Part shown: positions 30,635 through 47,832 of the stretch, piece after piece
How positions within the stretch are numbered: position 1 is the stretch's first letter
Layout: every line of letters begins with the position of its first letter
Source: Promicromonospora sukumoe 327MFSha3.1
GTDB lineage: Bacteria > Actinomycetota > Actinomycetes > Actinomycetales > Cellulomonadaceae
Reading direction: 5' to 3'
Assembly: GCF_000385135.1 (NCBI RefSeq)
Contig: NZ_ARQM01000010.1
Location: 1,302,001-1,366,000, forward strand
DNA: 64,000 nucleotides
Notes under the pieces: generated by a model
Database searches by the model: none
Told to the model about the DNA's origin: nothing
Seen by the model: the letters and a program-made list of their open reading frames with translations, nothing else
Translations under genes and position numbers: made by a program

Positions 30635-30653
30635 CGCTGGCATGCTTGGTGCC

Positions 30654-32599: not shown

Positions 32600-32677
32600 C
32601 CCTCCGCCGGCTCCCGGGCCGCGCGCCCGCACGATCCCTCGTGCCAGTGCGCGGTCCGTCGTCGTCCCGTTCCGGAG

Positions 32678-32694
32678 CGCCCCGGGACGGGGCG
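32678..32694 (+). terminator. Short GC hairpin after yvcK
   Basis: CGCCCC and GGGGCG arms around a 5-base loop, 80 bp after the yvcK stop and before the promoter of the sulfur operon; a plausible terminator of uvrC-rapZ-yvcK. Confidence 0.4.
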
Positions 32695-32727
32695 TCGTCC
32701 GATATGCGAGACCCCTCCTGGACACCG

Positions 32728-32756
32728 TTGACACACCCTGCGGCCGGCCGTAACTT
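32728..32756 (+). promoter_or_regulatory. Sigma-70 promoter of the sulfur operon
   Basis: TTGACA (32728-32733), exactly 17 bases, TAACTT (32751-32756). This is the best housekeeping-type promoter I see in the window. The predicted transcription start is near 32763, just before a palindrome. Confidence 0.68.
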
Positions 32757-32769
32757 CCCGCACACCGAA

Positions 32770-32791
32770 TTCCTATCAGTCCGATAGGGAA
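32770..32791. promoter_or_regulatory. Palindromic operator candidate
   Basis: TTCCTATC, 5 bases, GATAGGGAA: two 6-bp perfect arms (CCTATC/GATAGG) flanked by TTs and AAs, overlapping the predicted transcription start. Size and composition suit a dimeric repressor; Rrf2-type sulfur regulators (CymR/IscR-like) use similar sites, but the regulator is not encoded here. Confidence 0.5.
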
Positions 32792-32812
32792 TCGAAGCGG
32801 AGGGAGACCGGC

Positions 32813-32899
32813 ATGGCACGAGCGATGAACGGCACGGTGCGGATCGCGCACGCCCGCTCGACGTGTCGCGTCCCCGGCTGTTGTCCCGCCGGCCGCTGA
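32813..32899 (+). CDS. 28-codon cysteine-containing leader peptide
   Basis: An ORF with a strong ribosome site (GGAGGGAG, about 8 bases before the ATG) encodes 28 residues. Cys codons cluster at positions 18, 23 and 24 (STCRVPGCCP) near the stop, and the middle is Arg/His-rich (VRIAHARS). Short Cys-bearing leaders of this kind precede sulfur-assimilation operons in many actinobacteria and act as cysteine-responsive attenuators in mycobacteria. Ribosome stalling at the Cys codons under cysteine shortage would change folding of the 200-nt GC-rich leader that follows. It is not in the usual ORF size range and would be missed by standard gene finding. Confidence 0.62.
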   Translation: MARAMNGTVRIAHARSTCRVPGCCPAGR

Positions 32900-32928
32900 C
32901 CGCGCCCCGGTAGCACCGGCCGGCGCCC

Positions 32929-32978
32929 GCGCGCCCCGCCACCCGCGCTCGCCGCGCGCCCCGCCACCCGCGCTCGCC
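32929..32978. repeat. Perfect 25-bp tandem duplication in the operon leader
   Basis: GCGCGCCCCGCCACCCGCGC-TCGCC occurs at 32929-32953 and 32954-32978, with a third degenerate copy beginning at 32979. It lies between the leader-peptide stop and the first transporter gene. The repeated CG-rich, G-poor strand could give long single-stranded or Rho-loading RNA. Confidence 0.85.
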
Positions 32979-33021
32979 GCGCGTCCGCCGCACCCGCGGC
33001 ACGAACCCACCTCGCCCCCCG

Positions 33022-33038
33022 CGTCACCTCCGGTGACG
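33022..33038 (+). terminator. Attenuator-like hairpin before the substrate-binding protein gene
   Basis: CGTCACC and GGTGACG arms with a 3-base loop, 57 bp before the ATG at 33096 and 123 bp after the leader-peptide stop. No U-tract follows, so it may be a translational or Rho-linked element. Confidence 0.35.
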
Positions 33039-33095
33039 GGCCTTCGCGCACCCGCACGCAGGCCCGCCTCGCCGTGCCCCGAGAGGACAACCCGC

Positions 33096-34784
33096 ATGGT
33101 CCCGAACCACCCGTCCCGCGCTACCGCCAGCCCCACGACCAGCCCCGAGACCCGCACGAGCACCACCAGGGCCACCGCCGTCGCCGCCGCGGCCCTGGCT
33201 GCCGGCCTCGCCCTGACCGGCTGCGCCGGACCGGACGCCGCGTCGGGCGCCGCCTCGGACGCCGCGCCCGCCGAGCCGACCCCGGGCGGCACGCTCAAGT
33301 TCGCGCTCGGCGCCGCGCCGCAGGGCGTGGACCCGCAGCAGGTCGGCTCCAACGTGAGCATCTACGTGGCGCGGCAGCTCGCCGACTCGCTGACCGACCA
33401 GGACCCGGAGACGGGCGAGATCGGGCCGTGGCTCGCCGAGAGCTGGGACGTCAGCGACGACCTGACGCGCTTCACGTTCCACCTGCGCGACGGCGTCACG
33501 TTCTCGGACGGCAGCGCGCTGGACTCCGCGGACGTCCGGGCGAGCTTCGACGCGATCGCGGGCGACCTCGGGGCCGCCGCGCCGCTCGCGGCGAGCTATC
33601 TCGCGGGCTACGAGGAGACCGAGGTGCCGGACGAGCACACGGCGACCGTCGTCTTCGACGAGCCGAACGCGCAGTTCCTGCAGGCCACCTCGACGGTGTC
33701 GCTCGCGATCCTCGCCGAGGAGACGGCGGCCGTGGACCCGGCCGAGCGGCTCCAGGGCGACGTCGTCGGCTCCGGGCCGTTCGTGCTCGAGAGCTACACG
33801 CAGGACCAGGGCGCCGTGGTCACCCGGCGCGAGGGCTACGACTGGGCGCCGGCCTCGGCCGAGCACGAGGGCGACGCCTACCTGGAGCGCATCGAGTTCT
33901 CCGTGGTCCCGGAGTCCGGCGTGCGGGCGGGCGGGCTCGCGTCCGACCAGTTCGACGCCGTCGGCGACGTGCTGCCGCAGGACGTGCCGCAGATCGAGGG
34001 CTCCGGCGGCGCGGTGCTGACCCGCGCCAACCCGGGCGTGCCGTTCGTGCTGCAGCCCAACCTGACGCGCGCGCCCCTGGACGACGTCGAGGTACGGCGC
34101 GCGCTGCTCGTGGCGATCGACCGGCAGGAGCTGGTCGACACGGTGCTGTCCGACGCGTTCGAGCCGGCCACCGGCATCCTCGCCTCCACCACCCCGGGCT
34201 ACGCGGACCTGTCCGACCGGCTCGCCTTCGACCCCGAGGAGGCCGGCCGCATCCTCGACGACGCCGGCTGGGCGCCCGGCCCCGACGGCATCCGCGTCAA
34301 GGACGGCGAGCCGCTGGAGATCGAGGTGACCTACACCCCGGTGTTCACCGGCAGCGGGCCCGTCCTGGAGCTCGTCGCCCAGCAGCTCCGCGCCGTCGGC
34401 GTGGACCTGACGCTCCGCCAGCTCACGGCCGCCGAGCAGACCACCGCCCAGGACTCCGGCGACTACGACTTCTACTACTACAACGTCACGCGCGCCGACG
34501 CCGACATCCTGCGCACCCAGTTCTCCACGGCCCAGCGCAACCTCAGCCTCCGCGAGCCCGACGACGTCGTTGACCCGCTGCTCGACGAGCAGCTCGGCGA
34601 GGCCGACCCGGCCACCCGCGAGACGATCGCCGCCGAGGCCCAGGAGGCGCTGCTGGACCAGGCGCTCGCGGTCCCGCTGTTCGAGCTGGCCCAGTCCATC
34701 GGGGTGCGCGGCGACGTGCACGGCGTCACGTTCGACGCCTCCTCCCGGCTGCTCTTCCACGACGCCTGGATCGAGCAGGAGTGA
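33096..34784 (+). CDS. ABC transporter substrate-binding lipoprotein, family 5 (peptide/nickel/opine type)
   Basis: 562 aa from the ATG at 33096 (AGAGG upstream). A lipoprotein signal peptide ends in LALTGC with the lipidated Cys at residue 43. The mature protein has the SBP_bac_5 pattern: GGTLKFALGAAPQGVDPQQVG, LAESWDVSDDLTRFTFHLRDGVTFSDGSALDSADV, GSGPFVLESY and VRRALLVAIDRQELVDTVL. It captures a solute outside the membrane for the DppBC-type permease encoded next. Family 5 proteins bind peptides, glutathione, metals or opines; given the operon an organosulfur compound is likely. The stop overlaps the next start (TGATG). Confidence 0.92.
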   Translation: MVPNHPSRATASPTTSPETRTSTTRATAVAAAALAAGLALTGCAGPDAASGAASDAAPAEPTPGGTLKFALGAAPQGVDPQQVGSNVSIYVARQLADSLTDQDPETGEIGPWLAESWDVSDDLTRFTFHLRDGVTFSDGSALDSADVRASFDAIAGDLGAAAPLAASYLAGYEETEVPDEHTATVVFDEPNAQFLQATSTVSLAILAEETAAVDPAERLQGDVVGSGPFVLESYTQDQGAVVTRREGYDWAPASAEHEGDAYLERIEFSVVPESGVRAGGLASDQFDAVGDVLPQDVPQIEGSGGAVLTRANPGVPFVLQPNLTRAPLDDVEVRRALLVAIDRQELVDTVLSDAFEPATGILASTTPGYADLSDRLAFDPEEAGRILDDAGWAPGPDGIRVKDGEPLEIEVTYTPVFTGSGPVLELVAQQLRAVGVDLTLRQLTAAEQTTAQDSGDYDFYYYNVTRADADILRTQFSTAQRNLSLREPDDVVDPLLDEQLGEADPATRETIAAEAQEALLDQALAVPLFELAQSIGVRGDVHGVTFDASSRLLFHDAWIEQE

Positions 34785-35749
34785 TGGCCGCCTACGTGCT
34801 GCGCCGCCTGGGCGGCGCCGTCGCGGTCCTCTGGGCGGCGTTCACCGTCTCCTACCTGATCCTGTACCTGCTGCCCAGCGACCCCGTGGCGATCATGCTC
34901 GACCAGGGCGCCGGCGGCGAGCGCGTGGACCCGGCCCGCGTGGCCGAGCTGCGCGAGCGGTACGGGTTCGACCAGGGCCCCGTCCAGCAGTACCTCACGC
35001 TGCTCGGCCGCACGCTGACGGGCGACCTCGGCACCTCCATCAGCAGCGGCGCGCCCGTGACCGGGTTCATCGCGGACGCGTTCCCCGAGACCGCCAAGCT
35101 CGCCGGTCTGGCGCTCCTGCTCGGCCTGGCGGGCGGCGTCGGCATCGCGGTGCTCGCGTCCTGGACCCGGGCCGTCTGGCTGCGCGACCTGCTGCTCGCG
35201 CTGCCGCCGCTCGGCGTCGCGGTGCCCGGGTTCTGGGTGGGCCTCGTGCTGCTCCACCTGTTCTCGTTCACCTGGTTCGTCTTCCCGGCGGTCGGCAACG
35301 AGGGGTTTGCCTCCCTGGTGCTGCCCGCGGTCACGCTCGCGGTGGGGCTCGCCGCCGTCGTCGCGCAGGTGCTGTCCCAGGGCCTGCGCGAGGCGTGGCG
35401 CGCGCCGTACGTCGAGACGGCGTTCGCCAAGGGCTCCGGCCGGGCCCGGGTGCTCGGCGCGCACGTGGTCCGCAACGGGTCCCTGCCCACCGTCACCGTG
35501 CTCGGCGTGCTGGTCGGCAACCTGCTGGGCGGCACCGTCGTGGTCGAGACCGTCTTCTCCCGCCAGGGCTTCGGCCGGCTCGTCGAGAACGCCGTGACCA
35601 CCCAGGACATCCCCGTGGTCCAGGGGCTCGTGGTCGTCGCCGCCGCGGTGTTCGTCGGCACCAGCCTGCTGGTCGACCTCGTGCACCCCCTGCTCGACCC
35701 GCGGGTGCTCGCCGGCGGCCACGGCCGCGCCGGGGGAGGTGCGCGATGA
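34784..35749 (+). CDS. ABC transporter permease, DppB type
   Basis: 321 aa with six membrane spans, the first (YVLRRLGGAVAVLWAAFTVSYLILYLLPSDP) being the classic DppB/OppB start. The EAA loop (EAWRAPYVETAFAKGSGRARVLGAHVVRNG) contacts the ATPase. It forms the inner-membrane channel with the following permease and overlaps it by 4 nt (ATGA). Confidence 0.93.
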   Translation: MAAYVLRRLGGAVAVLWAAFTVSYLILYLLPSDPVAIMLDQGAGGERVDPARVAELRERYGFDQGPVQQYLTLLGRTLTGDLGTSISSGAPVTGFIADAFPETAKLAGLALLLGLAGGVGIAVLASWTRAVWLRDLLLALPPLGVAVPGFWVGLVLLHLFSFTWFVFPAVGNEGFASLVLPAVTLAVGLAAVVAQVLSQGLREAWRAPYVETAFAKGSGRARVLGAHVVRNGSLPTVTVLGVLVGNLLGGTVVVETVFSRQGFGRLVENAVTTQDIPVVQGLVVVAAAVFVGTSLLVDLVHPLLDPRVLAGGHGRAGGGAR

Positions 35750-36561
35750 GCGCCGTCCTGCGCACCCGCCCCGCCGCCCTCGTGGCGCTCGCGGTCGTCA
35801 CCCTGATCCTGGCCTGGGCGCTCGTGCCCGGCCTGTTCACCGGCCAGGACCCGATCGCCGGCGTCCCCGCCGACAAGCTCCTGGCCCCCGGCGCCGCCCA
35901 CTGGTTCGGCACCGACCACCTGGGCCGCGACCTCTTCGCGCGCACCGTGCACGGCACCAGCCTGTCCGTCCGGGCCGCGCTGCTCGCGATCGGCGTCGCC
36001 CTCGTGGCCGGGTCCGGCATCGGCCTGCTCGCCGGATTCCTCGGCGGCCCCGTCGACGACGCCCTCATGCGCGCCACCGACGTGCTGCTCGCCATCCCCG
36101 GCCTGCTGCTGTCGCTCGCCGTCGTGACCGCGCTCGGCTTCGGCACCGTCAAGGTCGCGATCGCCGTGGGCGTCGCCTCGGTCGCCACGTTCGCCCGCGT
36201 GATGCGCAGCCAGGTGCTGCGGGTGCGGCACGCGACCTACGTCGAGGCCGCGCGGCTCGCCGGCGCCGGGCGGGGAGCCGTGCTGCTGCGGCACGTGCTG
36301 CCCAACGCCGCCGGGCCCGTGCTGGCGCTCGCGGCCGTCGAGCTCGGCGCGGTGATCCTCGCGGTCTCGGCCCTGAGCTTCCTCGGGTACGGCGCCACGC
36401 CGCCCACGCCCGAGTGGGGGTCGCTCGTGGCCGAGGGGCGCGACTACCTGGCCGTGGCCTGGTGGTACTCGACGCTGCCCGGCCTGGTCATCGCGCTGTT
36501 CGTGCTCGCCGTCGGCGTGCTCGGGCGGGCGCTCACCCGCGAGACGAGGACGGACCGATGA
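35746..36561 (+). CDS. ABC transporter permease, DppC type
   Basis: 271 aa. HWFGTDHLGRDLFARTVHGTSLSVRAAL is the DppC N-terminal signature, and the EAA loop VRHATYVEAARLAGAGRGAVLLRHVLPNA is intact. Five to six membrane spans. It pairs with the DppB-type permease and overlaps both neighbours by 4 nt. Confidence 0.93.
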   Translation: MSAVLRTRPAALVALAVVTLILAWALVPGLFTGQDPIAGVPADKLLAPGAAHWFGTDHLGRDLFARTVHGTSLSVRAALLAIGVALVAGSGIGLLAGFLGGPVDDALMRATDVLLAIPGLLLSLAVVTALGFGTVKVAIAVGVASVATFARVMRSQVLRVRHATYVEAARLAGAGRGAVLLRHVLPNAAGPVLALAAVELGAVILAVSALSFLGYGATPPTPEWGSLVAEGRDYLAVAWWYSTLPGLVIALFVLAVGVLGRALTRETRTDR

Positions 36562-38396
36562 CGCTGACGACGAGCACTCCGGGCGCCGGCCCGACGGCGG
36601 ACGCCGCCGCGGCCGGGGGAGCGGACGACCAGGCGCCGTCGGACGCTCTGCTGCGCGTCCGCGGCCTGCGCGTCGCGTACGGCGCCGCCGAGGTGGTGCA
36701 CGGCGTCGACCTGGACGTGCGGCCGGGCGAGGTGGTCGCGCTGGTCGGCGAGTCCGGCAGCGGCAAGTCCACCACGGCCCACGCCCTGATCGGCCTGCTG
36801 CCCGACGGCGGCCGGGTCACCGGGGGCTCGGCGCACCTCGGCACGGGGCAGCGCTCGGCGGCGCTGACCGGGCTGCTCCCGGACGCCTGGCGGCGCGTGC
36901 GCGGCGTGCGGGTGGGCCTGGTGCCGCAGGACCCGGGCACCGCACTCGACCCCGTGGTGCGCGTGGGGGAGCAGGTGGCCGAGGCGCTCGTCGTGCACGG
37001 CACGCCGCGCCGGGCCGCCCGCGAGCGGGCGGTCGAGATCCTGGCCGATGTGGGGCTCGACCGGCCCCGGGAGCGGGCGCGGCAGTACCCGCACCAGCTC
37101 TCGGGCGGCATGCGGCAGCGCGTGCTCGTGGGCATCGCGATGGCGTGCGAGCCGGAGCTGGTGATCGCGGACGAGCCGACGTCGGCCCTGGACGTGACGG
37201 TGCAGCGGCGGGTGCTCGACCTGCTCGCGGACCTCACGGGCCGCGCGGGCACGGCGGTGCTGCTCATCACGCACGACCTGGCCGTGGCCGCCGACCGGGC
37301 CGACCGCGTCGTCGTGCTCAAGGACGGCGTCGTGGTCGAGCAGGGGCCGGCCGCCCGCGTGCTGGGCGCGCCCGAGCACCCGTACACGCGGGAGCTGGTC
37401 GCGACCGTACCCGGCAGAAATAATGTGCCAAGCGCGTATGCGCCGGGCGCCGGGGCCACGGTCGGCACGGGCGAAAAGGCAGCCCCGAGCGGGGCAGCCG
37501 TCGCGGCGACGGCCGCCGGGACGCCGGACGAGGGCACGACCGACGGGACGTCCTCCGAAGCGACGGCCGCCGGCGCGATCGCCCTCGGTACCGCCGCCGT
37601 GGAGCCGTCGCCCGCGCTGATCGAGGTCCGCGGCCTCGTCAAGGAGTTCCGGTTAGGGCGGCGCGAGCGGCTGCGCGCCGTCGACGACGTGTCGTTCACC
37701 GTGCCGCGCGGGTCGGCGTTCGCGCTGGTGGGGGAGTCGGGGTCGGGCAAGTCGACCACCGCGCGCCTCGTGCTGGGGCTGGACCGGCCGGACGCCGGCG
37801 TGGTCGAGCTGGACGGCGCGCCCGTGGGCGCCGACCGCGCGACCCGCCGCCGTACCCAGCTCGTGCACCAGGACCCGTACTCGTCCCTGGACCCGCGCTT
37901 CACGGTCGCCGCCGTCGTGGAGGAGCCGCTGTGGGCGCACCGGGTCGGCACGCGCGCCGAGCGGCGCGACCGGGTGGCGCAGCTCCTGGAGCAGGTGCAC
38001 CTCTCCCCGGACCTGGCCGGACGACGGCCCGCCGAGCTGTCGGGCGGGCAGCGCCAGCGTGTGGCGATCGCGCGGGCGCTGGCCCTGGACCCGGAGCTGC
38101 TCGTGCTGGACGAGCCGACGTCGGCGCTCGACGTCTCCGTGCAGGCCCGCGTGCTGGAGCTGCTGGCCCGGCTGCGCGCCGAGCGCGGCCTCACCTACCT
38201 GTTCATCTCGCACGACCTCGCGGTGGTGCGGCAGGTCGCCGACCACGTGGGCGTGCTCAGCGGCGGCCGGCTCGTGGAGACCGGGCCCGTCGCACGCGTC
38301 TTCGACCACCCCGCCCACCCCTACACCGCCGAGCTGATCGCGGCGATCCCCGGTGCCCGTACCCCTGCGCACCCCGACCGGAAGGACCTGACATGA
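36558..38396 (+). CDS. Fused DppD-DppF ABC transporter ATPase
   Basis: 612 aa carrying two complete nucleotide-binding domains. The first has Walker A GESGSGKSTT near residues 69-78 and signature [32 protein letters not shown]. The second has GESGSGKSTT near 394-403 and [33 protein letters not shown] 60-residue low-complexity Ala/Thr/Gly linker (about 285-350) joins them and contains a small AT-rich patch at 37419-37427 unlike its surroundings. The two halves power uptake by the preceding permeases. It overlaps both neighbours by 4 nt. Confidence 0.93.
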   Translation: MTLTTSTPGAGPTADAAAAGGADDQAPSDALLRVRGLRVAYGAAEVVHGVDLDVRPGEVVALVGESGSGKSTTAHALIGLLPDGGRVTGGSAHLGTGQRSAALTGLLPDAWRRVRGVRVGLVPQDPGTALDPVVRVGEQVAEALVVHGTPRRAARERAVEILADVGLDRPRERARQYPHQLSGGMRQRVLVGIAMACEPELVIADEPTSALDVTVQRRVLDLLADLTGRAGTAVLLITHDLAVAADRADRVVVLKDGVVVEQGPAARVLGAPEHPYTRELVATVPGRNNVPSAYAPGAGATVGTGEKAAPSGAAVAATAAGTPDEGTTDGTSSEATAAGAIALGTAAVEPSPALIEVRGLVKEFRLGRRERLRAVDDVSFTVPRGSAFALVGESGSGKSTTARLVLGLDRPDAGVVELDGAPVGADRATRRRTQLVHQDPYSSLDPRFTVAAVVEEPLWAHRVGTRAERRDRVAQLLEQVHLSPDLAGRRPAELSGGQRQRVAIARALALDPELLVLDEPTSALDVSVQARVLELLARLRAERGLTYLFISHDLAVVRQVADHVGVLSGGRLVETGPVARVFDHPAHPYTAELIAAIPGARTPAHPDRKDLT

Positions 38397-39343
38397 CCGA
38401 GGCACTGCGCACGGTGACCGATATCGCGACCGAGCCCGACGCCGCGAGCGCCGCCGCCGCGACCGCCCCTGAAGCCGTCCGGGAGCATGCCGCGTGGCGG
38501 GCGGAGCGGGAGCACAACCTGCGCGCTCCCCACGGCTGGCTGAGCCTGACGGGGCTGCTCTGGCCGACGGCGGAGCCCGGTCCGCTGCCGGGCCTGCCGG
38601 GGGAGTGGTGGGTCGCGGACGGCGCCCTGCACACCCGGCCCGCGCCGGGGGACACGACGGTGCTCCGCGGCGAGCTGGTGGCGGAGCAGGGGCCGACGTC
38701 GGTCGTCGTGGACGAGGGGCGTTCGCTCGTCGTGGGCACCTTCGTTCCGGATGGCGCTTCTCTCCCGGACGCCGAGCAGGACGCCGTGCAGGACACCGCC
38801 ACCCCCGACCCCGAGCACGAGGTCGCCGTCGAGGTAGTCCTGCGCACGGGCCGGTACGGCATCCGCCCGCGGGACCCCCGAGCGGCGACGCGCGCCGGTT
38901 TCACCGGGGTGCCCGTGTTCGATCACGACCCGGCCTGGGTGCTGGACGCCCGCGTGTCGTGGTACGACACGCCCGAACGGGTGACCGTCGGCGCCGCCCA
39001 GCCGCGCCTGGTGCACCACGTCCAGGTGATCGGCGAGGTCGACGTCGTGCACGGCGGCACGGTGACGACGCTCGCGCTGACCGGCACCCCGGCGGCGCCC
39101 ACCCTGCTGTTCAGCGACGAGGCGGACGGCGTCGCGCCGTGGCGGGTCCTGCACGTCGCGGTGCCGGCGTCGTCCGACCCGGCCGAGGTCGAGGCCGAGA
39201 GCGTCCCCGGCATCCTGCGCCTGGACCTGAACCGCGCGATCAACCTGCCGTACGCGTTCACCGAGTTCGGCACGTGCCCCGCGCCGGTGGCGGGCAACCA
39301 CCTGCCGTTCGCCGTCACCGCGGGCGAGAAGGCACCCCGGTGA
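38393..39343 (+). CDS. DUF1684 family protein
   Basis: 316 aa. HGWLSLTGLLWPTAEPG near the start and NLPYAFTEFGTCPAPVAGNHLPFAVTAGEK at the end are hallmarks of DUF1684 proteins, which are predicted beta-rich and of unknown biochemical role. There is no signal peptide. It is embedded by 4-nt overlaps between the first transporter's ATPase and a GNAT acetyltransferase gene, so it is expressed with the sulfur operon and may handle an imported compound. Confidence 0.85.
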   Translation: MTEALRTVTDIATEPDAASAAAATAPEAVREHAAWRAEREHNLRAPHGWLSLTGLLWPTAEPGPLPGLPGEWWVADGALHTRPAPGDTTVLRGELVAEQGPTSVVVDEGRSLVVGTFVPDGASLPDAEQDAVQDTATPDPEHEVAVEVVLRTGRYGIRPRDPRAATRAGFTGVPVFDHDPAWVLDARVSWYDTPERVTVGAAQPRLVHHVQVIGEVDVVHGGTVTTLALTGTPAAPTLLFSDEADGVAPWRVLHVAVPASSDPAEVEAESVPGILRLDLNRAINLPYAFTEFGTCPAPVAGNHLPFAVTAGEKAPR

Positions 39344-39951
39344 CCGCCGTCTCGGCGTCCCCATGGGCGCACGCCGCGATCGAGGTGCGCGACGTGCACC
39401 TGTCCGACCCGCTGGTCGAGCCGCTGCTGGCCGGGCTCTCGGTCGAGTACCGCGCCCGGTACCACGACCTGCTGACGGAGGAGCAGCACCGGGCCGAGAT
39501 GGCGCACTACGCCGCCGAGGAGTTCGCCCCGCCGGTCGGTTCCCTGGTGCTGCTCCTGGCCGACGGCGAGCCGGTGGCGGGCGGCGCGTTCCGCCGTCGG
39601 CTGGAGCCGGAGCTCGGCGAGACGGCCCGTCTGGCGCGCCCGGACGCACGTGACGCGGACGGCGTCCCCGTCGTCCCGACGGCCGAGCTCAAGCGCATCT
39701 GGACCCACGACGCGCACCGGCGCCGGGGCCTGGCCCGGCGCGTCCTCGCCGAGCTGGAGACCCGGGCCCGCGACCTGGGCTACCCGCGCCTGTACCTGAC
39801 CACGGGCCCGCGCCAGCCGGAGGCCGCGGGGCTGTACCGGTCCACGGGCTACACGCCGCTCACCGCGGCCGCCGCCGGCGAGCCCGCCGACCCGGCGGGC
39901 GAGCAGCCGTTCGGCCCGCTCCCGTTCGAGAAGTGGCTGGCCACACCATGA
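39340..39951 (+). CDS. GNAT-family N-acetyltransferase
   Basis: 203 aa from a GTG that overlaps the previous stop (GTGA). The acetyl-CoA motif A is visible as [40 protein letters not shown], with the RRRGLAR pyrophosphate loop, and motif B as [12 protein letters not shown]. In B. subtilis the snaA/snaB acetyltransferases encoded with cystine-type ABC importers N-acetylate S-substituted cysteines before flavin monooxygenases cleave the C-S bond. The same gene partnership here suggests a comparable role; this is inference. Confidence 0.88.
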
Positions 39952-41054
39952 GCGCGAACCTGGCCGAGGGCGAGTCCCGCCTCCTGTACCCGCCGCCCGG
40001 CCTGCCGCCGGGCGGGGACGGCGGCGCGTCCGCCGGACCCGCCGACGAGGACCTCCGCGTGGTCGCCGCCCGCCACCCGGGCCGCTGGGTGGCCACCGCC
40101 GTCGTCGGCGTGCTGCTGGCCATGGTGGTCTCGTCCCTGGTCACGAACGACCGCTGGGAGTGGGACGTCGTGGCCCGCTACCTGACGTGGCCCTCGATCC
40201 TGGAGGGTGCGTGGGCCACGGTGCGGCTCACGGTGACGGCGTCGGTCGTGGGCTTCGCGCTCGGCACGGTGCTGGCCCTGATGCGGCTGTCCCGTTCCCC
40301 GCTGCTGCAGGCCGTCTCGTGGGCCTACACCTGGGTGTTCCGGTCGGTGCCGCTGCTGCTGCAGCTCCTGCTCTGGTACAACCTCGCCTACCTGTACCCG
40401 GTGCTGAGCCTGGGCATCCCGTTCGGGCCGGAGTTCCTGTTCTTCGACACGCTCGACCTGATCGACAAGTTCTGGGCCGCGATCCTGGGCCTCGGCCTGT
40501 CGCAGGCGGCCTACAGCGCGGAGATCGTCCGCGCCGGCATCCTCGGCGTCGACCAGGGGCAGCACGAGGCCGCCGCCTCCCTGGGCCTGCCGCGGCACCG
40601 GCAGGTGCGGCGCATCATCCTGCCGCAGGCCATGCGGTCCATCGTGCCCACGGCCGTGAACGAGGTGATCGGCCTGCTCAAGGGCACCTCGATCGTGTAC
40701 GTGCTGGCGTACGGCGAGCTGTTCTACATCGTCAGCGTCATCTACGGCCGCAACGGCCGGGTGGTGCCGCTCCTGATCGTCGCCGCGATCTGGTACCTGG
40801 CCCTGACCACGCTCATCACGGTGGTCCAGTACTACGTCGAGCGGCACTACGCCAAGGGCGCGCTGCGCACCCTGCCGCCCACGCCCGTCCAGCGCGTGCG
40901 CTGGGAGCTCCAGGTCGGGTTCTCGCGCCTCACAGGCGCCCCCGTGCCCGACGGCGTCCCGCCCGGCCTGGCCGCGCGCGTCCGGGTCGGGCGGTGGGTC
41001 GCCCCGCGCACCACACCCACCGGACCGACCGGTCCGAAGGGAGGTGCCGCATGA
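39948..41054 (+). CDS. ABC transporter permease, polar amino acid (His/Glu/Cystine) type
   Basis: 368 aa, longer than usual because of a 45-residue N-terminal cytoplasmic extension and a 45-residue Pro/Arg-rich C-terminus. The core is the HisM/GlnP fold: [47 protein letters not shown], and the EAA loop [47 protein letters not shown] single permease gene implies a homodimer channel. ATGA overlap on both sides. With the GNAT and monooxygenases, cystine or S-alkylcysteine uptake is likely. Confidence 0.92.
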
Positions 41055-41815
41055 CCGGGGGACTGCTGGAGATCCGGGGCGTGCACAAGTCGTACGGCCT
41101 GCTGGAGGCGCTGCGCGGAGTGGACCTGACCGTCCGGCCGGGCGAGGTCGCCGCGATCATCGGTCCGTCCGGGTCGGGAAAGTCGACGCTGCTGCGCGCC
41201 ATCAACCACCTGGAGAAGGTGGACCGCGGGTTCGTGTCCCTGGACGGCGAGCTCATCGGGTACGCCCGGCGCGGCAACACCCTGCGCGAGCTCACCGAGC
41301 GGGAGATCCTGCGCCGGCGCACCCGCATCGGGTTCGTCTTCCAGAACTTCAACCTCTTCCCGCACCTCACCGTGCTGGAGAACGTCGTCGAGGCACCGAT
41401 CTTCGCCCAGGGCAGGCCACGCACCGAGGCCGAGGCGGAGGCCCGCGAGCTCCTGGCCCGGGTCGGGCTCGCCGACCGGGCCGACGACCGGCCCCGGCAG
41501 CTCTCCGGCGGCCAGCAGCAGCGCGTCGCCATCGCCCGCGCGCTCGCCCTGCGCCCCGCCGTCGTCCTGTTCGACGAGCCGACGTCCGCCCTGGACCCCG
41601 AGCTCGTCGGCGAGGTGCTCGGCGTCATCAAGGAGCTCGCCGGCACCGGCACCACCCTCGTCGTCGTCACCCACGAGGTCGGTTTCGCCCGCGAGATCGC
41701 GGACACCGTCGTCTTCATGGACGAGGGCGTCGTCGTCGAGCAGGGGCCGCCCGCCGACGTGCTCGACCACCCCGTCAACCCCCGGACCCAGGCCTTCCTG
41801 GAGAAGGTCCTGTGA
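41051..41815 (+). CDS. ABC transporter ATPase, polar amino acid type
   Basis: 254 aa. Walker [11 protein letters not shown] near residues 38-47, Q-loop [17 protein letters not shown], signature [17 protein letters not shown] and Walker [15 protein letters not shown], followed by the H-loop VVTHE. This is the GlnQ/TcyN type of importer ATPase and pairs with the preceding permease. GAGGTG precedes the ATG. Confidence 0.94.
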
Positions 41816-41904
41816 CCCTCGACCTCCACCTGAACCTGGCCCTCACCCCGACCCTCGACCACCGCCTGAACCCCGCACCGACCCCCGCCCCGAAGGGAAC
41901 CACC

Positions 41905-42915
41905 GTGACCGTCTCCCGACGCGCCACCCGCCGCCTGCTCGCCCTGACCGCCGCGCCGCTGCTCGCCCTGACCGCCGCCTGCTCGGCCGCCAGCACCGAG
42001 CGCCCCGAGACCGAGGAGGCCGCCGGCCTCGCCGGGAACGCACCCCAGTCCGCCGGCCTCCAGGTCAGCACCAGCCCCGACCAGGACCGCATCCGCAGCA
42101 CCGAGTCCGCTGACGCCGTGGCCCTGCTGCCCGACGAGTGGGCCGACAAGGACGAGATCACCGTCGCCGTCAGCGGCGGCGGCGCCCCGCCCCTGGTCTT
42201 CCTCGCCGACGACGACAAGACCCCGATCGGCCACGAGACCGACATCGCCCAGCTCGTCGCCGACGCCCTCGGCAAGGACCTGAACCTGGAGGTCAAGGCC
42301 TGGGCCGACTGGCCGCTCGCCCTCCAGTCCGGCGACGTCGACGCCGTCATCTCCAACGTCACCGTCACCGAGGAGCGCAAGGAGACCATCGACTTCTCCA
42401 GCTACCGCGTCGACGAGCTCGGCTGGCTCACCGCCGCCGACTCCGACCTGGTCATCGACTCGCGCGAGGACATCGCCGGCAAGATCGTCGGCGTCGGCTC
42501 CGGGACCAACCAGGAGAAGATCCTGCTCGAGTGGGACCGCCTCAACCAGGAAGAGGGCCTGGAGCCCATCCAGGGCCCCGAGTACTACGAGCAGCTCTCC
42601 GACGTGCTGCTCGCCCTCCAGTCCGGCCGCGTCGAGGCCTACGTGGGCCCCAACGCGTCGCTCGCCTACCAGGCCGCCGTCTCCCCGGAGGACTTCAAGG
42701 TGGTCGGCACCCTGAACGGCGGCTGGCCCGACACCGCGCAGATCGCCGTGGCCACCAAGAAGGGCGCCGACGCCGCCGACGCGGTCACCGCCGCCCTCAA
42801 CCACGCCATCGAGGACGGCTCCTACCAGCAGGTGCTGGAGCGCTGGGGCCTCGAGGTCGAGGCCGTGGACCGCGCCGAGACCAACCCGCCCGGCCTGCCC
42901 AAGACGGAGGAGTGA
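41905..42915 (+). CDS. ABC transporter substrate-binding lipoprotein, family 3
   Basis: 336 aa from the GTG at 41905 (GAAGGGAA upstream). The signal peptide ends in LTAAC with the lipidated Cys at residue 26. The mature domain follows the SBP_bac_3 pattern: IGHETDIAQLVADALGKDLNLEVKAWADWPLALQSGDVDAVISNVTVTEERKETIDFSSYRVDELGW. Family 3 proteins bind polar amino acids, cystine and S-substituted cysteines. An in-frame GTG at 41812 overlaps the ATPase stop, but its 31-residue extension is low-complexity and would bury the signal peptide. Confidence 0.9.
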   Translation: MTVSRRATRRLLALTAAPLLALTAACSAASTERPETEEAAGLAGNAPQSAGLQVSTSPDQDRIRSTESADAVALLPDEWADKDEITVAVSGGGAPPLVFLADDDKTPIGHETDIAQLVADALGKDLNLEVKAWADWPLALQSGDVDAVISNVTVTEERKETIDFSSYRVDELGWLTAADSDLVIDSREDIAGKIVGVGSGTNQEKILLEWDRLNQEEGLEPIQGPEYYEQLSDVLLALQSGRVEAYVGPNASLAYQAAVSPEDFKVVGTLNGGWPDTAQIAVATKKGADAADAVTAALNHAIEDGSYQQVLERWGLEVEAVDRAETNPPGLPKTEE

Positions 42916-42920
42916 GCCGC

Positions 42921-44210
42921 ATGACCGAACCAGCCACCGACCGCGCCACCGGCACCCGCGTACCCCTGTCCGTGCTCGACCTCGCGCTCGTCGCCGACGG
43001 CTCGACCGGCGCCGCGGCGATCCAGCGGGCCGTGGCGCTCGCCGTGGACCTCGACGCCCTCGGCTACCGGCGCGTCTGGTACGCCGAGCACCACCTCGCG
43101 CCCGGCGTCGCCTCCGCCGCGCCCGCCGTCCTCGCGGCCGCCGTCGCGGCCCGCACCTCGCGCATCCGCGTCGGCTCCGGGGCGGTGCTGCTGTCCACGA
43201 CGTCGCCCCTGATCGCCGCCGAGCAGTTCGGCACCATCGCCGCCCTGCACCCCGGCCGCGTCGACCTGGGCCTGGGCCGCGCGTTCACGGTCCCGCCGTC
43301 GGCCGCCGCGGCCGGAGGCGGGGGCGGCGAACGTAGGACTGGTCGCGCCAAGACGGCCGAGAACCCGAGCAGACCTACGTTCGACGGCGGGCCGGCAGCA
43401 CCGGCAGGAGCGGGAGCCCGGGGCGTGCCCCGGCTCGTGGACGGGCTGTACGTTCCGCCCGCGCCGCCGAACGGGTTCAACGACCCCGCGCTGCGCGAGC
43501 GGATCCTCGCGCAGCAGGAGGTGATCGGCGCGCAGCGCGAGCCCGCGGACTTCCGCGAGGAGGTCGAGCTCGTGCTCGACGTCCGGCGCGGCACCTACCG
43601 GGACCGCAGCGGCGGCGCGTACACCAGCCCGCCCGTCGAGGGGGCCCAGTTCGACCTCTGGCTCCTCGCGTCCAGCGGCGGCGAGAGCGCCCGCGTGGCC
43701 GGCGAGCTCGGCCTGCCGCTCGCGGCCAACTTCCACGTCAGCCCCGCCACCGTGCTCGACACCGTGGTGGCGTACCGGGAGGCGTTCCGGCCCGGCGTGC
43801 TGGACGAGCCCTACGTGATCGTGTCGGCCGACGTGCTCGTCGCCCAGACCCTCGAGCGCGCCCGCGTCCTGGCCGAGCCGTTCGCCGACTGGGTGCTGTC
43901 CATCCGCCGCGGCGAGCGCGGCGCCATCGCGTACCCGTCGCCGTCGGCCGCGACCGCCTGGACCGACCGGCCCGACGCCGAGCGCGCGCTGGTGGCCGAC
44001 CGCGTGGACACGCGGATCGTCGGCGACCCGGACACCGTCGTCGAACGGCTGGAGACGCTCGTCCGCGTCACCGGCGCCGACGAGCTGCTGGTCACCACCG
44101 CCACCCACGACCCCGCCGAGACCCGCCGCTCGTTCGAGCTGCTGGCCCACGCGTGGGGGACCGGCGACCGCGCCACCACCAGCCCCGGCCGGGTGGCCAG
44201 CGGCGTCTGA
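42921..44210 (+). CDS. LLM-class flavin-dependent monooxygenase with an in-frame palindromic insert
   Basis: 429 aa, with GGAGGAG upstream of the ATG. The luciferase-like TIM barrel is seen in VLDLALVADGSTGAAAIQRAVALAVDLDALGYRRVWYAEHH, RIRVGSGAVLLSTTSPLIAAEQFGTIAALHPGRVDLGLGRA (MsnO8-like group) and the C-terminal GDPDTVVERLETLVRVTGADELLV. It should use FMNH2 supplied by a separate reductase, probably to oxidise an organosulfur substrate. A 56-bp inverted repeat (43328-43383) interrupts a variable loop at about residues 136-155, adding residues such as RRTGRAKTAENPSRP without breaking the frame. Confidence 0.9.
   Translation: MTEPATDRATGTRVPLSVLDLALVADGSTGAAAIQRAVALAVDLDALGYRRVWYAEHHLAPGVASAAPAVLAAAVAARTSRIRVGSGAVLLSTTSPLIAAEQFGTIAALHPGRVDLGLGRAFTVPPSAAAAGGGGGERRTGRAKTAENPSRPTFDGGPAAPAGAGARGVPRLVDGLYVPPAPPNGFNDPALRERILAQQEVIGAQREPADFREEVELVLDVRRGTYRDRSGGAYTSPPVEGAQFDLWLLASSGGESARVAGELGLPLAANFHVSPATVLDTVVAYREAFRPGVLDEPYVIVSADVLVAQTLERARVLAEPFADWVLSIRRGERGAIAYPSPSAATAWTDRPDAERALVADRVDTRIVGDPDTVVERLETLVRVTGADELLVTTATHDPAETRRSFELLAHAWGTGDRATTSPGRVASGV
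43328..43383. repeat. 56-bp palindromic element inside a monooxygenase gene
   Basis: Arms CGAACGTAGG (43328-43337) and CCTACGTTCG (43374-43383) are perfect and extend to 18 bp with two mismatches. The 20-base centre is less GC-rich than the gene. Its form recalls the intergenic hairpins elsewhere in the window, so it looks like a REP-like unit that landed in frame. Confidence 0.7.
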
Positions 44211-44284
44211 ACCCGGCCCGCCCCGCCGTCGGCCCGCCCCGCCGTCCGACCGCCCTGCACGCCCCGAAGCGAAGGAGAACCCTC

Positions 44285-45415
44285 ATGCCCGTCGAGTTCC
44301 TCGGCATCGCCGCCACCAATGACGCCTCCGAGACCACCGCCCGCACCACCGCGCCCTTCGACCCCGACTACCTGGTCCGCATCGCGCGCGCCCACCGGGA
44401 CAACGGCTGGACCCGCATCCTGTTCGCCTACGGCTCCTCGGGGCCGGAGCCGTCGGCGCTCGCGGCCCACGTCGCCGCGCACGTGCCGGACATCGAGCTG
44501 CTGCTGGCGCACCGGCCCAACGTCTCCTACCCGACGTACGCGGCGAAGACGTTCGCCACCCTGGACCAGCTCTCGGGCGGGCGGCTGTCGGTGCACTTCA
44601 TCTCTGGCGGCAACGACCACGAGCAGGGCCGCGAGGGCGACACCCTGACCAAGGACCAGCGGTACGCCCGCACCCGCGAGTACATCCAGATCGTGAAGCG
44701 GGCCTGGACCAGCGCGGAGCCGTTCGACCATCACGGCGAGTTCTACGACCTCGACGACTTCGTGCTGGACGTGAAGCCGGTGGAGGGCCACGTGCCGACC
44801 ATCTCGTTCGGCGGCTCCTCCGACGCCGCCTACCCGGTGGGCGCAGCGGAGGCCGACATCTACGCGGTGTGGGGCGAGCCCCTGGACCGTACCGCCGAGC
44901 AGATCGCCCGCGTGCACGCCGAGGCGGCGGCCGCCGGCCGAGCCACGCCGCCGCGCATCCACGCCGCGTTCCGGCCGATCATTGCGCCCACCGAGGAGCT
45001 GGCCTGGGCGAAGGCCCACCGGGTGCTCGACCGCATCGAGGCCCGCAAGGCGGCCCAGGGCGGCGTCCTGAGCCGACGCCACCCGATCGACAAGCCCGAG
45101 AACGCGGGCTCCCAGCGTCTGCTGGAGATCGCCGCGCAGGGCGAGCGGTTCGACACGGCGCTGTGGACCGCCACCGCCAGGGCCACCGGCGGCGCCGGGA
45201 ACTCCAACGCCCTGGTCGGCACGCCCGAGCAGGTGGCGCAGGCGCTGCTCGCGTACTACGACCTGGGCGTGCGGGTGATCTCCGCGCGCGGCTACGACCT
45301 GCTCGACGACGCGATCGACTTCGGCCGGTACGTCATCCCCCTGGTCAAGGCGGGCGTGGCCGAGCGCGACCGTGCCGCGGCGGCGTCGGACCCGGATACG
45401 GAGGTGGCGGCCTGA
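44285..45415 (+). CDS. LLM-class flavin-dependent monooxygenase, SsuD-related (1)
   Basis: 376 aa with AAGGAGAA upstream of the ATG. Family landmarks are NGWTRILFAYGSSGPEPSALAAHVAAHV, LLLAHRPNVSYPTYAAKTFATLDQLSGGRLSVHFISGG, RYARTREYIQIVKRAWTSAEPFDHHGEFYDLDDF and ISFGGSSDAAYPVGAAEADIYAVWGEP. The last is the FMN/phosphate region shared with alkanesulfonate monooxygenase SsuD. It probably cleaves C-S bonds of a sulfonate or sulfone, releasing sulfite. The stop codon overlaps the next start (TGATG). Confidence 0.9.
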   Translation: MPVEFLGIAATNDASETTARTTAPFDPDYLVRIARAHRDNGWTRILFAYGSSGPEPSALAAHVAAHVPDIELLLAHRPNVSYPTYAAKTFATLDQLSGGRLSVHFISGGNDHEQGREGDTLTKDQRYARTREYIQIVKRAWTSAEPFDHHGEFYDLDDFVLDVKPVEGHVPTISFGGSSDAAYPVGAAEADIYAVWGEPLDRTAEQIARVHAEAAAAGRATPPRIHAAFRPIIAPTEELAWAKAHRVLDRIEARKAAQGGVLSRRHPIDKPENAGSQRLLEIAAQGERFDTALWTATARATGGAGNSNALVGTPEQVAQALLAYYDLGVRVISARGYDLLDDAIDFGRYVIPLVKAGVAERDRAAAASDPDTEVAA

Positions 45416-46545
45416 TGCGCTTCCAGGTCCTGGACATCGCGTTCAACCCGCCCCATCCCGTCACCGGCCGCGAGGTGCCGCCCGCCGACCGGCTGAACCG
45501 GATCGTGGACACCGCGGTGCTCGCGGAGGAGCTCGGGTTCGACTCCTTCGCGGTGGGGGAGAGGCACGCCGGCCCGGTGCTGTCCTCGGCCCCGACGGTG
45601 CTGCTGGGCGCCATCGCCGCCCGCACGTCCCGCATCCTGCTCTCCACCGGCGTCACCGTGCTGTCCCTGCACGACCCGATCCGCCTCGCCGAGGACCTGG
45701 CCACGATCGACCAGCTCAGCCGCGGCCGGCTGGAGATCGTGATCGGCAAGGGCAACGAGGACCTGCAGTACCCGCTGCTCGGCCTCGACATCGCCAAGCA
45801 GTACGAGTACCTGCGGGAGAACTACGAGCTGCTGCGGCTGCTGCTCTCCTCCGAGGACGTCACCTGGGAGGGGCGGCACCGGCACCGGCTGGAGCACGCG
45901 ACCACGCTCCCGCGCCCGTTCGCGGGACCGTTCCGCATCTGGCACGGCTCGGCGACGTCGCAGTTCGCCGTCGACCTGGCCGCCGAGCACGGCGACCCGA
46001 TCGTCAGCGCCAACGCCCTGCAGCCCCGCGAGAACTACGCCGTGCTCGTCGACCGGTACCGGGAGCGGTACGCGGCCGCGGGGCACGACCCGGCGTACGG
46101 GTTCGTGGGCGCGGGCTCCGGCGGCCTGTTCCTGGCCGACACCACCGAGGAGGCGATCGAGCAGTACCGGCCCATCTACGAGGGCCAGGTGCGCCAGCAG
46201 GACTCGCGCAAGCACGCGCCGGGCGCCATCGGCAAGGTGACCAGCTTCCGCACCCTGGAGGACGCGGTCGAGCGCGGCCCGGCCCTGGTGGGGTCGCCCG
46301 AGCGGGTGGCGCAGAAGATCCTCGACTACCACGGCACGTTCGGGCACGTGCTGCAGGCGGTCTCGGTGAACCACCTGCTGGAGCCGGAGCGGCAGCAGGA
46401 CGTGCTGCGCCGGTTCGCGGCCGAGGTGATCCCGTTGGTCCGGGCCGAGGTCAGCACCGACCTGTGGGGCCCGCGCGACGAGCGGCGGGCGGCCGGCTTC
46501 ACGGCCGGTCTCGCAGCCGAGGCCCCGGCGGAGGCCGCCGCATGA
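45415..46545 (+). CDS. LLM-class flavin-dependent monooxygenase (2)
   Basis: 376 aa. The bacterial-luciferase-like fold shows in RIVDTAVLAEELGFDSFAVGERHAGPVLSSAPTVLLGAIAARTSRILLSTGVTVLSLHDPIRLAEDLATIDQLSRGRLEIVIGKGN and in a late VGSPERVAQKILDYHGTFGHVLQAVSVNH. This subgroup often accompanies SsuD-like enzymes in sulfur-starvation clusters; its substrate is unknown. It is bounded by a TGATG overlap upstream and an ATGA overlap downstream. Confidence 0.9.
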   Translation: MRFQVLDIAFNPPHPVTGREVPPADRLNRIVDTAVLAEELGFDSFAVGERHAGPVLSSAPTVLLGAIAARTSRILLSTGVTVLSLHDPIRLAEDLATIDQLSRGRLEIVIGKGNEDLQYPLLGLDIAKQYEYLRENYELLRLLLSSEDVTWEGRHRHRLEHATTLPRPFAGPFRIWHGSATSQFAVDLAAEHGDPIVSANALQPRENYAVLVDRYRERYAAAGHDPAYGFVGAGSGGLFLADTTEEAIEQYRPIYEGQVRQQDSRKHAPGAIGKVTSFRTLEDAVERGPALVGSPERVAQKILDYHGTFGHVLQAVSVNHLLEPERQQDVLRRFAAEVIPLVRAEVSTDLWGPRDERRAAGFTAGLAAEAPAEAAA

Positions 46546-47752
46546 CGACGCCGGCCCGCCGTCCCGCCGGCGTCCACTGGTTCCTGCCGACCAACGGCGA
46601 CGCCCGCGGCATCGTGGGCAGCGCCCACGCCAAGGAGGCGGCGGGCGGCACCGGCGTCAGCGGGCTGCGCGAGCCCACGGTGGCCTACCTCGGCGAGGTC
46701 GCGCGGGCCGCGGACCGCCTCGGGTACGACGCCGTGCTCACGCCCACCGGCACCTGGTGCGAGGACGCGTGGCTCACCACCGCCGCGCTCGCGGGGCAGA
46801 CCGGCGGCTGCGGTTCCTGGTCGCGGTGCGCCCCGGGCTGGTGTCCCCGACGCTCGCCGCGCAGATGGCCGCCACCCTGCAGCGGTTCACGGGCGGGCGG
46901 GTGCTGCTGAACGTCGTCACGGGCGGCGACGAGGTCGAGATGCGCCGGTTCGGCGACCACCTCGACCACGACGAGCGGTACGACCGCACCGCCGAGTTCC
47001 TGCGCGTCCTGCGGGGCGTGTGGTCCGCCGGCACCGCGGCCGGGCCGGCGTTCGACCACACCGGGCGGCACTACCGCATCGAGGGCGCCCGGATCCTCGC
47101 CGCGCCCGACCCGGCGCCCGAGATCTGGTTCGGCGGGTCGTCCGACGCCGCGCTCCCGGTCGCCGCCGAGCACGCCGACGTCTACCTGACCTGGGGCGAG
47201 CCGCCGGACCAGGCGCGGCGCAAGATCGAGCGCGTCCGCGAGCTGGCCGCCGCCCGCGGCCGGACCCCGCGGTTCGGCATCCGCCTGCACGTGCTGACGC
47301 GGGACCGGTCCTCCGACGCCTGGGACCAGGCCCAGCGCTGGCTCGACGAGCTGAGCCCCGAGCAGGTCGCCGACGCCCAGCGCGTCCTGACGGCGTCCGG
47401 CTCGGTGGGCCAGCGCCGCATGGCCGCGCTGCACGACGGCGGCCGGCTCGCCGCGCGCGGCACCGCCCGGGACCTGGAGGTCCACCCCGGGCTCTGGGCC
47501 GGCGTCGGCCTGGTCCGGGGCGGCGCGGGGACCGCGCTGGTGGGCAGCCACGAGGAGGTCGCCGACCTGGTCGCGGAGTACCACGACGCGGGCTTCGACG
47601 AGTTCGTGCTGTCGGGGTACCCGCACCTGGAGGAGGCCTACTGGTTCGCCGAGGGCGTACGCCCGGTCCTGGACGCCCGGGGGATCACGGCGCGCGCCGC
47701 CCAGGACCCGCGGCCCGGGGCCGCACCGGGCGCCGTCGGACCCACCCCATGA
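46542..47752 (+). pseudogene. ssuD: Alkanesulfonate monooxygenase ssuD, frameshifted
   Basis: Two frames together make a complete SsuD homologue of about 403 aa. The first frame (from 46542) runs through WFLPTNGD and DRLGYDAVLTPTGTWCEDAWLTTAALAGQT. The second continues RLRFLVAVRPGLVSPTLAAQMAATLQRF, ADVYLTWGEPPDQARRKIERVR, NLWAGVGLVRGGAGTALVG-like and EFVLSGYPHLEEAYWF. The break is at 46800-46806 in ACCGGCGGCTG, where one base of an expected GAG codon is missing. As read, translation stops at 46910 after 122 codons. Everything downstream is well conserved, so the lesion is recent or a sequencing error. SsuD converts alkanesulfonates to aldehyde and sulfite with FMNH2 and O2. No ssuE-type flavin reductase is adjacent. 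Confidence 0.85.
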
Positions 47753-47832
47753 TGCGACACGCCGGGACAATTCGCCCGAGTTTCCGCGATTCCACCGGGT
47801 TAACCCGTACATGACCATGGCAGGATGACGCC

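Follow-up and report, generated by a model that had tools for sequence, protein, structure and literature searches.

A probable cysteine-controlled organosulfur scavenging operon between yvcK and whiA in Promicromonospora

In Promicromonospora sukumoe 327MFSha3.1, a run of 13 genes lies between yvcK and whiA, and the locus raises the question of what these genes do, what controls them and how they came to be there. The window analyzed is a 64,000-nucleotide (nt) stretch of contig NZ_ARQM01000010.1 (forward-strand positions 1,302,001 to 1,366,000), taken from a genome of 6.25 Mb in 18 contigs that is referred to as G000. The answer that we consider probable is a cysteine-controlled organosulfur scavenging operon, made up of importers and LLM flavin monooxygenases behind a cysteine (Cys) leader, that descends from a cassette most likely ancestral to the genus.

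The evidence for control begins with a region that had been overlooked. The original prediction let the operon fill the entire interval 32600-47832; its first 496 nt (32600-33095) are instead a leader that holds no structural gene and carries the following conserved elements, including a short open reading frame (ORF).

32728..32756, plus strand: promoter-like pair TTGACA - 17 nt - TAACTT, conserved in relatives
32772..32788, no strand assigned: palindrome CCTATC-AGTCC-GATAGG, a putative operator or hairpin at the 5' end of the RNA
32813..32899, plus strand: 28-codon leader ORF MARAMNGTVRIAHARSTCRVPGCCPAGR, with Shine-Dalgarno sequence GGAGGGAG at 32799 and three TGT Cys codons near the stop
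33022..33038, no strand assigned: small palindrome GTCACC-TCC-GGTGAC before the first structural gene; some relatives keep it with one base changed

The ORF at 32813-32899 has one feature expected of a cys attenuator, namely a short translatable frame with clustered Cys codons before a sulfur operon. It is present in five of the six readable cassettes with an intact 5' module (G000, G006, G007, G008 and G010), and these five species share its length, its Shine-Dalgarno sequence and its Cys cluster. At its end the ORF carries 3 to 5 Cys codons, and over the five genomes 19 of the 20 are TGT; the Cys codons of 19 window genes comprise 22 TGC and no TGT. None of the NCBIfam models matched three of the leader peptides at E values up to 10. 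The promoter-like pair is visible by eye in nine genomes of the genus (G000, G001 and G005-G011) with a variable second hexamer (TAACTT/TACCTT). The palindrome at 32772 is the sole site in the G000 genome with 0-1 mismatch to the searched patterns, and a sulfur regulon sharing it was rejected on that ground. With two mismatches, 12 further places appear in G000 (viewed as coordinates only) versus 4 for a reversed control, and one of them lies about 265 nt before a SAM-IV riboswitch site on contig C11. Pairing within the palindrome holds in 95.9% of cells, with 101 of 500 shuffles reaching the same pairing and the same covariation score. The G000 leader also contains a perfect 25-nt tandem duplication (32927-32976) that is not evident in aligned relatives.

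Downstream of the leader, ORF calls and family searches of the window place the 13 genes on the plus strand at 33096-47752, bearing out the predicted single run of named protein families between yvcK and whiA. The locus and its flanks are as follows.

28655-30634: uvrC, left of yvcK
30642-31592: rapZ, left of yvcK
31589..32599, plus strand: yvcK, left flank (PF01933, 237 bits)
33096..34784, plus strand: SBP5 (SBP_bac_5), peptide/nickel-class substrate-binding protein; nearest model TIGR04028, below cut-off
34784..35749, plus strand: ABC permease 1 (family match)
35746..36561, plus strand: ABC permease 2 (family match)
36558..38396, plus strand: fused two-domain ABC ATPase (family matches)
38393..39343, plus strand: DUF1684 protein (family match)
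39340..39951, plus strand: GNAT acetyltransferase (family match)
39948..41054, plus strand: amino-acid-type ABC permease (family match)
41051..41815, plus strand: amino-acid-type ABC ATPase (family match)
41812..42915, plus strand: SBP_bac_3, amino-acid-type substrate-binding protein (family match)
42921..44210, plus strand: LLM monooxygenase 1 (LLM1), TIGR03558 MsnO8 family, above cut-off
44285..45415, plus strand: LLM monooxygenase 2 (LLM2), nearest SsuD/MsuD/SfnG, below cut-offs
45415..46545, plus strand: LLM monooxygenase 3 (LLM3), nearest CE1758/2I7G families, below cut-offs
46542-47752, plus strand: ssuD, broken; its N part runs from 46542 to about 46802 and its C part, in a different frame, from about 46799 to 47752
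47753..48813, plus strand: right flank, a conserved block upstream of whiA (about 80-90 nt, with GACAC) and whiA at 47833-48813

Most adjacent genes overlap, as had been predicted (10 of 12 junctions), although by 4 nt (eight) or 1 nt (two) rather than by 4-5 nt; the two remaining junctions are gaps of 5 and 74 nt. This gene spacing supports the view that the 13 genes form one operon. Three of the four LLM genes that had been listed are intact, but the fourth, ssuD, which had been offered as the sulfur marker, is split over two frames.

The same cassette had been proposed for a search elsewhere in relatives, and it was found in Cellulomonas and others, away from yvcK-whiA. With at most nine candidates per genome scored, relatives of SBP5 at 61-73% identity occur at eight Cellulomonas loci, in Sanguibacter, in Jiangella and in genomes G060 and G075; neither yvcK nor whiA is present in the fetched stretches around them. 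Among the 50 of 80 loci viewed for gene order, SBP5-permease-permease-ATPase-DUF1684-(GNAT)-permease-ATPase-SBP_bac_3 recurs at L097-L101, L111, Sanguibacter (L029/L102), G060 and G075, and LLM1 comes next in every locus of that order where the stretch extends far enough. L121 is without GNAT and the second importer, Jiangella has a different order, and L103 stops at a contig end. Before 10 of 15 distinct loci (8 Cellulomonas, G060 and G075) lies a SAM-IV aptamer (RF00634, Rfam), which was not found before Sanguibacter, Jiangella (57 nt upstream only), two Nocardia and one Streptomyces. In all ten SAM-IV-bearing operons, a Shine-Dalgarno sequence and a Cys-rich ORF starting 14-32 nt after the aptamer follow, with peptides such as MYRSQCRCCCR and MSTDGQPAAVPGGLSRLSSCCPGAGSGALSTCCR. 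When a Cys leader ORF is defined by at least two Cys in the last 12 residues, 39 of 10000 random 80-nt windows from the same loci pass, as do none of 29 usable sites among the strongest SAM-IV matches of the family (30 fetched, one in a shortened locus excluded).

The zero among those 29 controls suggested a tandem leader specific to the cassette, an idea that was dropped since 11 of 55 further SAM-IV sites share the arrangement within 80 nt. These 55 sites were chosen among the matches listed, are mainly weaker and include eleven from the genus. By eye, the first long ORF is LLM-like or MetN-type-ATPase-like at five of the 11, while the other six yielded no ORF from the filter. At 31 of the remaining 44 sites an ORF starts 7-37 nt after the aptamer, mostly SufS-like or FMN-reductase-like by eye (FMN, flavin mononucleotide). 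The commonest aptamer-to-ORF distance is 31 nt both for leader ORFs and for plain gene starts. Judged by this spacing, the leader ORF occupies the start-codon position that the gene itself holds in the plain SAM-IV arrangement; in the ten related operons, the start codon beside the aptamer is that of a Cys leader ORF rather than of an enzyme gene. Since the leader ORF sits at that position, a series gate is proposed. The stretches before distant SBP5 homologs in G114, G133 and G022 have a SAM-IV-like look and no Cys ORF, with only G022 among the covariance-model matches listed. SAM-IV with a Cys leader ORF also occurs at another locus of a Promicromonospora genome (L262, G007:C1:68100-69212). 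At L253 and L255, SAM-IV is followed by the 8-residue ORFs MRMCCCRH and MRMCCCRP and then, by eye, a MetN-like ATPase, and methionine uptake may use the same two-stage leader.

Turning to mechanism, a shortage of charged tRNA-Cys would stall ribosomes on the TGT codons that end the 28-codon leader ORF and so allow the operon to be expressed. Stalling could act by opening the ribosome site of the first gene or by blocking Rho termination, and the palindrome at the presumed transcription start may add promoter-level or 5'-RNA control. In Cellulomonas and others, SAM-IV directly before the Cys-rich ORF would constitute a gate for S-adenosylmethionine (SAM) and then cysteine. The Promicromonospora copy has the leader ORF and no aptamer; three SAM-IV matches occur in the G000 genome among the matches listed, none of them in the window. 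On this basis we tentatively suggest, at somewhat less than an even chance, a two-stage leader in the family in which SAM-IV gates the Cys ORF and the ORF gates the operon, so that expression would need low SAM plus low charged tRNA-Cys, and in which Promicromonospora replaced the SAM stage by promoter and palindrome to leave a cysteine-only sensor.

The probable role of the operon is to take up organic sulfur compounds and release their sulfur. Organosulfur scavenging is supported by its fit to two importers, several FMN-dependent LLM enzymes, reductases in some species and sulfur-linked leaders. The assignment, originally made from gene names, is now also backed by cis-regulation because of the Cys leader ORF here and the SAM-IV and Cys leader ORFs before ten related operons. 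The SBP5 importer would take in peptide-like or adduct-like organosulfur and the SBP_bac_3 importer amino-acid-like compounds. The LLM enzymes, of which LLM1 passes TIGR03558 (MsnO8) at 281.4 bits versus a cut-off of 166.95, would then cleave C-S bonds oxidatively with FMNH2 from a reductase encoded elsewhere. GNAT perhaps N-acetylates S-substituted cysteines beforehand, like YxeL of Bacillus. DUF1684 was considered as the missing flavin reductase and rejected, as its AlphaFold model (mean pLDDT 76.2) shows no flavin-binding fold among its matches; the six chains matched at E 1e-3 or better are all haloarchaeal proteins also found by sequence.

How the genes came to lie between yvcK and whiA was addressed by a survey of 150 family genomes, of which 144 have both genes on one contig. 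Distances were measured between hidden Markov model matches. The original prediction took adjacency as the norm, and the distance is indeed below 1100 nt in 129 of the 144 (median 877.5 nt); in G000 it is 16038. The 15 genomes that exceed 1100 nt or are reordered comprise seven genus members (9.3-16.9 kb), G005 (2.1 kb), G011 (2.6 kb) and six genomes of other genera: G040 with the opposite gene order, G038 (1.2 kb), G016 (1.5 kb), and G020, G023 and G075 (about 3.6 kb). Distances above 3.7 kb are confined to Promicromonospora among the 144, and the 132 family genomes that were usable outside the genus hold about 3 kb at most between the two genes. The gap in G075 holds an AMP-binding enzyme and a membrane protein, and that in G023 a protease-like ORF together with a weak match to a phage integrase (L034 3809-6377; L036 3484-6270); G020 resembles G075 in spacing. 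Since other genera hold unrelated inserts there, the yvcK-whiA gap may be a tolerant insertion site.

Within the genus (13 genomes), the LLM block is at the site in seven (G000, G001 and G006-G010). Remnants occur in two, G005 and G011, with DUF1684 only and, in G011, also an FMN reductase by eye. In both remnants the promoter-like pair and a variant of the palindrome are present. In G002, G003 and G012, yvcK and whiA are adjacent and the site is empty. Searches of the whole genomes of G002, G003, G005, G011 and G012 for SBP5 (at E 1e-60) and LLM3 (at E 1e-80) gave no match. The thirteenth, G004 (L030, L031, L016), is counted separately as its yvcK-whiA region is not reliably readable: it is split over gapped scaffolds, and on one contig yvcK is followed after about 160 nt by the tail of ssuD and the whiA start, with other cassette genes on another contig. 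The occupied sites differ in content. G009 is without SBP5 to ATPase and has its sole DUF1684 directly before whiA, G001 is without GNAT and the amino-acid importer, G007 without the amino-acid importer and G010 without LLM2. An FMN reductase (PF03358) takes the place of ssuD in G001 and G006 and, by eye, G011; G006 also has PF01613. A DUF1684 gene lies directly before whiA in G005, G007, G008 and G009 (L018, L023, L017, L024), as a second copy in G007 and G008. The block upstream of whiA with GACAC, which we take to be the WhiA target motif, is recognizable in all 13 genus genomes and two outgroups, so the insert spares whiA's own upstream region.

A 16-nt motif, AATA(A/G)TGTGCCAAGCG, occurs in the linker of the cassette ATPase (37419-37434), at seven other places in G000, and at the trimmed sites of G011 and G004. 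All 13 genus genomes have 1-8 copies, with none for the reversed control. Two inverted pairs, about 100 kb apart, account for four of the copies, and G010, G011 and G012 have a similar layout. As a sulfur operator the motif was rejected, its neighbors appearing by eye riboflavin-like, histidine-like, ACC-deaminase-like or uncharacterized, with no sulfur signal.

A host tree was built from the DNA of about 10 kb downstream of whiA, where some open frames used may be antisense. It places G011 and G001 together as sister to all other genus members (99/99) and the empty clade well within the genus, with support of 98/99 for the enclosing group of seven and 100/100 for the three empties, next to G005 (87/83), in which the promoter-like pair and a diverged palindrome are retained. 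The closest genus member to G000 in this tree is G004. The main splits of the LLM tree are those of the host tree: G001 first, G006 and G007 with G009, and G008 with G004, G000 and G010. The G010 row of that tree is flawed (LLM2 missing, a paralog taken, a long branch), and G010 and G004 have traded places compared with the host tree. A four-gene tree left the genus backbone unresolved, with the G025 yvcK (12 nt) excluded by a length filter. Since the host tree gives the empties a nested position and is largely mirrored by the LLM tree, the cassette was most likely gained once on the genus stem, lay in the ancestor between the stop codon of yvcK and the conserved block upstream of whiA, and was later lost or trimmed. 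The predicted lineage-specific acquisition into a housekeeping locus thus stands at the level of the genus, but not as a recent event, since the cassette is most likely ancestral to the genus with later losses; it is also present, at other places, in Cellulomonas and others. Presence at the site in all close relatives had been named as grounds for refutation, and it holds for about half of them (7 of 13).

Several observations weigh against a cysteine-controlled sulfur operon of this history, and some of them invite other explanations. In the leader, no promoter passed a consensus scan, which missed the pair at 32728 (second hexamer 3 of 6). No intrinsic terminator passed the scan, the RNA folds no better than shuffles (z -1.19), and no Rfam covariance model, SAM-IV included, matched above its gathering score. 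G001 has the cassette and promoter-like pair without leader ORF or palindrome, and G009 keeps pair and palindrome while the leader ORF is gone together with the first genes; because these two do without it, the leader ORF is not indispensable. Among the related operons, the Sanguibacter cassette yielded neither SAM-IV nor a Cys leader ORF, and no clear homology is visible by eye between the leader peptides of Promicromonospora and those of Cellulomonas. A chance ORF, with control solely through a palindrome-binding regulator, would suit the G009 leader, the G005 remnant (no Cys ORF by eye) and the lack of a fold signal, but it appears unlikely given the shared length, Shine-Dalgarno sequence and Cys cluster in five species, the rare TGT codons and the Cys leader ORFs before the related operon in 10 other genomes. 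On the protein side, SBP5 scores under the TIGR04028 cut-off (361.5 vs 468.5 bits), LLM2 and LLM3 score under curated cut-offs, with LLM2 below SsuD and SfnG, and both ATPase halves pass the NikD and NikE nickel-importer cut-offs. Together with the solved structures that best match SBP5 by sequence, mostly nickel-binding proteins, the ATPase scores could point to an importer half for nickel or peptides and a mixed nutrient cassette in which sulfur is one theme only. That explanation strikes us as slightly less probable again, since SBP5 is far below the NikA cut-off (164.6 vs 393 bits) and closer to that of TIGR04028, the family searches matched no nickel-enzyme family among the 13 genes, and SAM-IV precedes not only ten related operons but also homologs in G022 and G120 that are about 50% identical to SBP5.

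For the proposed sulfur operon, the frame break in ssuD is a further difficulty, as a key sulfur gene is broken in this assembly. The N part matches the SsuD profile to position 66 and the C part from 66 on in the other frame. The halves meet at about 46800-46803 and score 54.3 and 356.9 bits versus the TIGR03565 cut-off of 518.2, so neither gives a full-length match. DNA alignment shows one base fewer near 46802 than in the intact genes of G007, G008 and G010, the other gaps being 3, 6 or 15 nt, very ends excepted. The ratio of nonsynonymous to synonymous substitution rates (dN/dS) of the C part remains low, at 0.17-0.23 versus relatives (0.15 for the intact pair G010/G008), which argues for a break that is either very young or an assembly error. 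We see an even chance that the gene is intact and the break an assembly or sequencing error: a single base is involved, both halves are about 90% identical to G010 and dN/dS is low after the break, but G001, G006 and G009 have no ssuD at the yvcK-whiA site, so its loss there is common. With respect to history, the SBP5-permease-ATPase tree joins G001 to the group of G008, G010, G000 and G004 (80/98), whereas in the host tree it branches first; this leaves some transfer, or a weak tree, possible and makes this tree less clear on whether the insertion is recent. Recent horizontal transfer into this strain through a mobile element would accord with the variable presence of the cassette in the genus and with the inserts in the same gap of other genera, including the one with the phage-integrase match. 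It is nevertheless very improbable. Site and order are the same in both deepest branches of the genus, the LLM tree follows the main host splits, reduced species hold remnants, GC content is 75.2% in the cassette versus 73.1% in the window, and neither a recombinase among the 13 genes nor a long repeat common to both ends, as expected of an integrative mobile element, was found.

Among known systems, the leader most resembles those of mycobacterial cys operons. Seliverstov et al. 2005 (PMC1262725) predicted terminator-free Cys leader ORFs for Mycobacterium, Propionibacterium and Bifidobacterium, and Canestrari et al. 2020, as cited in PMC9031893 and PMC13236596, tested polycysteine leader ORFs in M. 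smegmatis. The window ORF is likewise short, with Cys clustered near the stop, before a sulfur operon and without an intrinsic terminator. Unlike the leaderless ORFs of Canestrari et al., it has a Shine-Dalgarno sequence, and unlike those of the biosynthetic mycobacterial operons, it fronts a scavenging operon and has comparable ORFs in relatives that follow a SAM-IV aptamer. For S. lividans, PMC8079986 describes a C-M-C stretch in the leader peptide of metNIQ, and a SAM-IV riboswitch that precedes the gene of a cysteine desulfurase. The open-access PubMed Central literature, so far as its texts were available in part, yielded no description of a SAM-IV aptamer and a Cys leader ORF in series.

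For the enzymes, the B. subtilis yxe/scm operon offers the closest parallel. As described in PMC9706529, the breakdown of S-(2-succino)cysteine there involves acetylation by YxeL, oxygenation by YxeK and deacetylation by YxeP; GNAT, ABC importer and FMN-dependent monooxygenase occur in one locus that obtains sulfur from cysteine adducts. The present operon differs in its second importer and several LLM genes, and family searches of its 13 genes found no YxeQ-like family and no deacetylase to complete the set of GNAT, importer, LLM and deacetylase; since the deacetylase is not among them, the yxe likeness remains an analogy. LLM1, for its part, belongs to the MsnO8 family. The ssu/sfn alkanesulfonate and dimethylsulfone systems share SsuD-family monooxygenases and, in some relatives, an FMN reductase, but here no SsuA-type model was among the NCBIfam matches of either substrate-binding protein, SsuD is broken and LLM2 is below the SsuD and SfnG cut-offs. 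In the TIGR04028/TIGR04027 pair (Klebsiella KPN_01854/KPN_01858), TIGR04028 is the nearest curated model to SBP5, though SBP5 falls short of its cut-off, and the TIGR04027 cut-off is reached by no LLM of the operon.

Taken alone, the insertion is of modest interest, as a detail specific to the genus. If the proposed leaders are correct, a riboswitch and a leader peptide would work in series in the family, and the relocated operon of Promicromonospora would show how a sulfur sensor for both SAM and cysteine was rewired to respond only to cysteine. The cis-elements would also provide functional evidence, beyond the reach of gene names, for poorly annotated importers, DUF1684 proteins and LLM enzymes.

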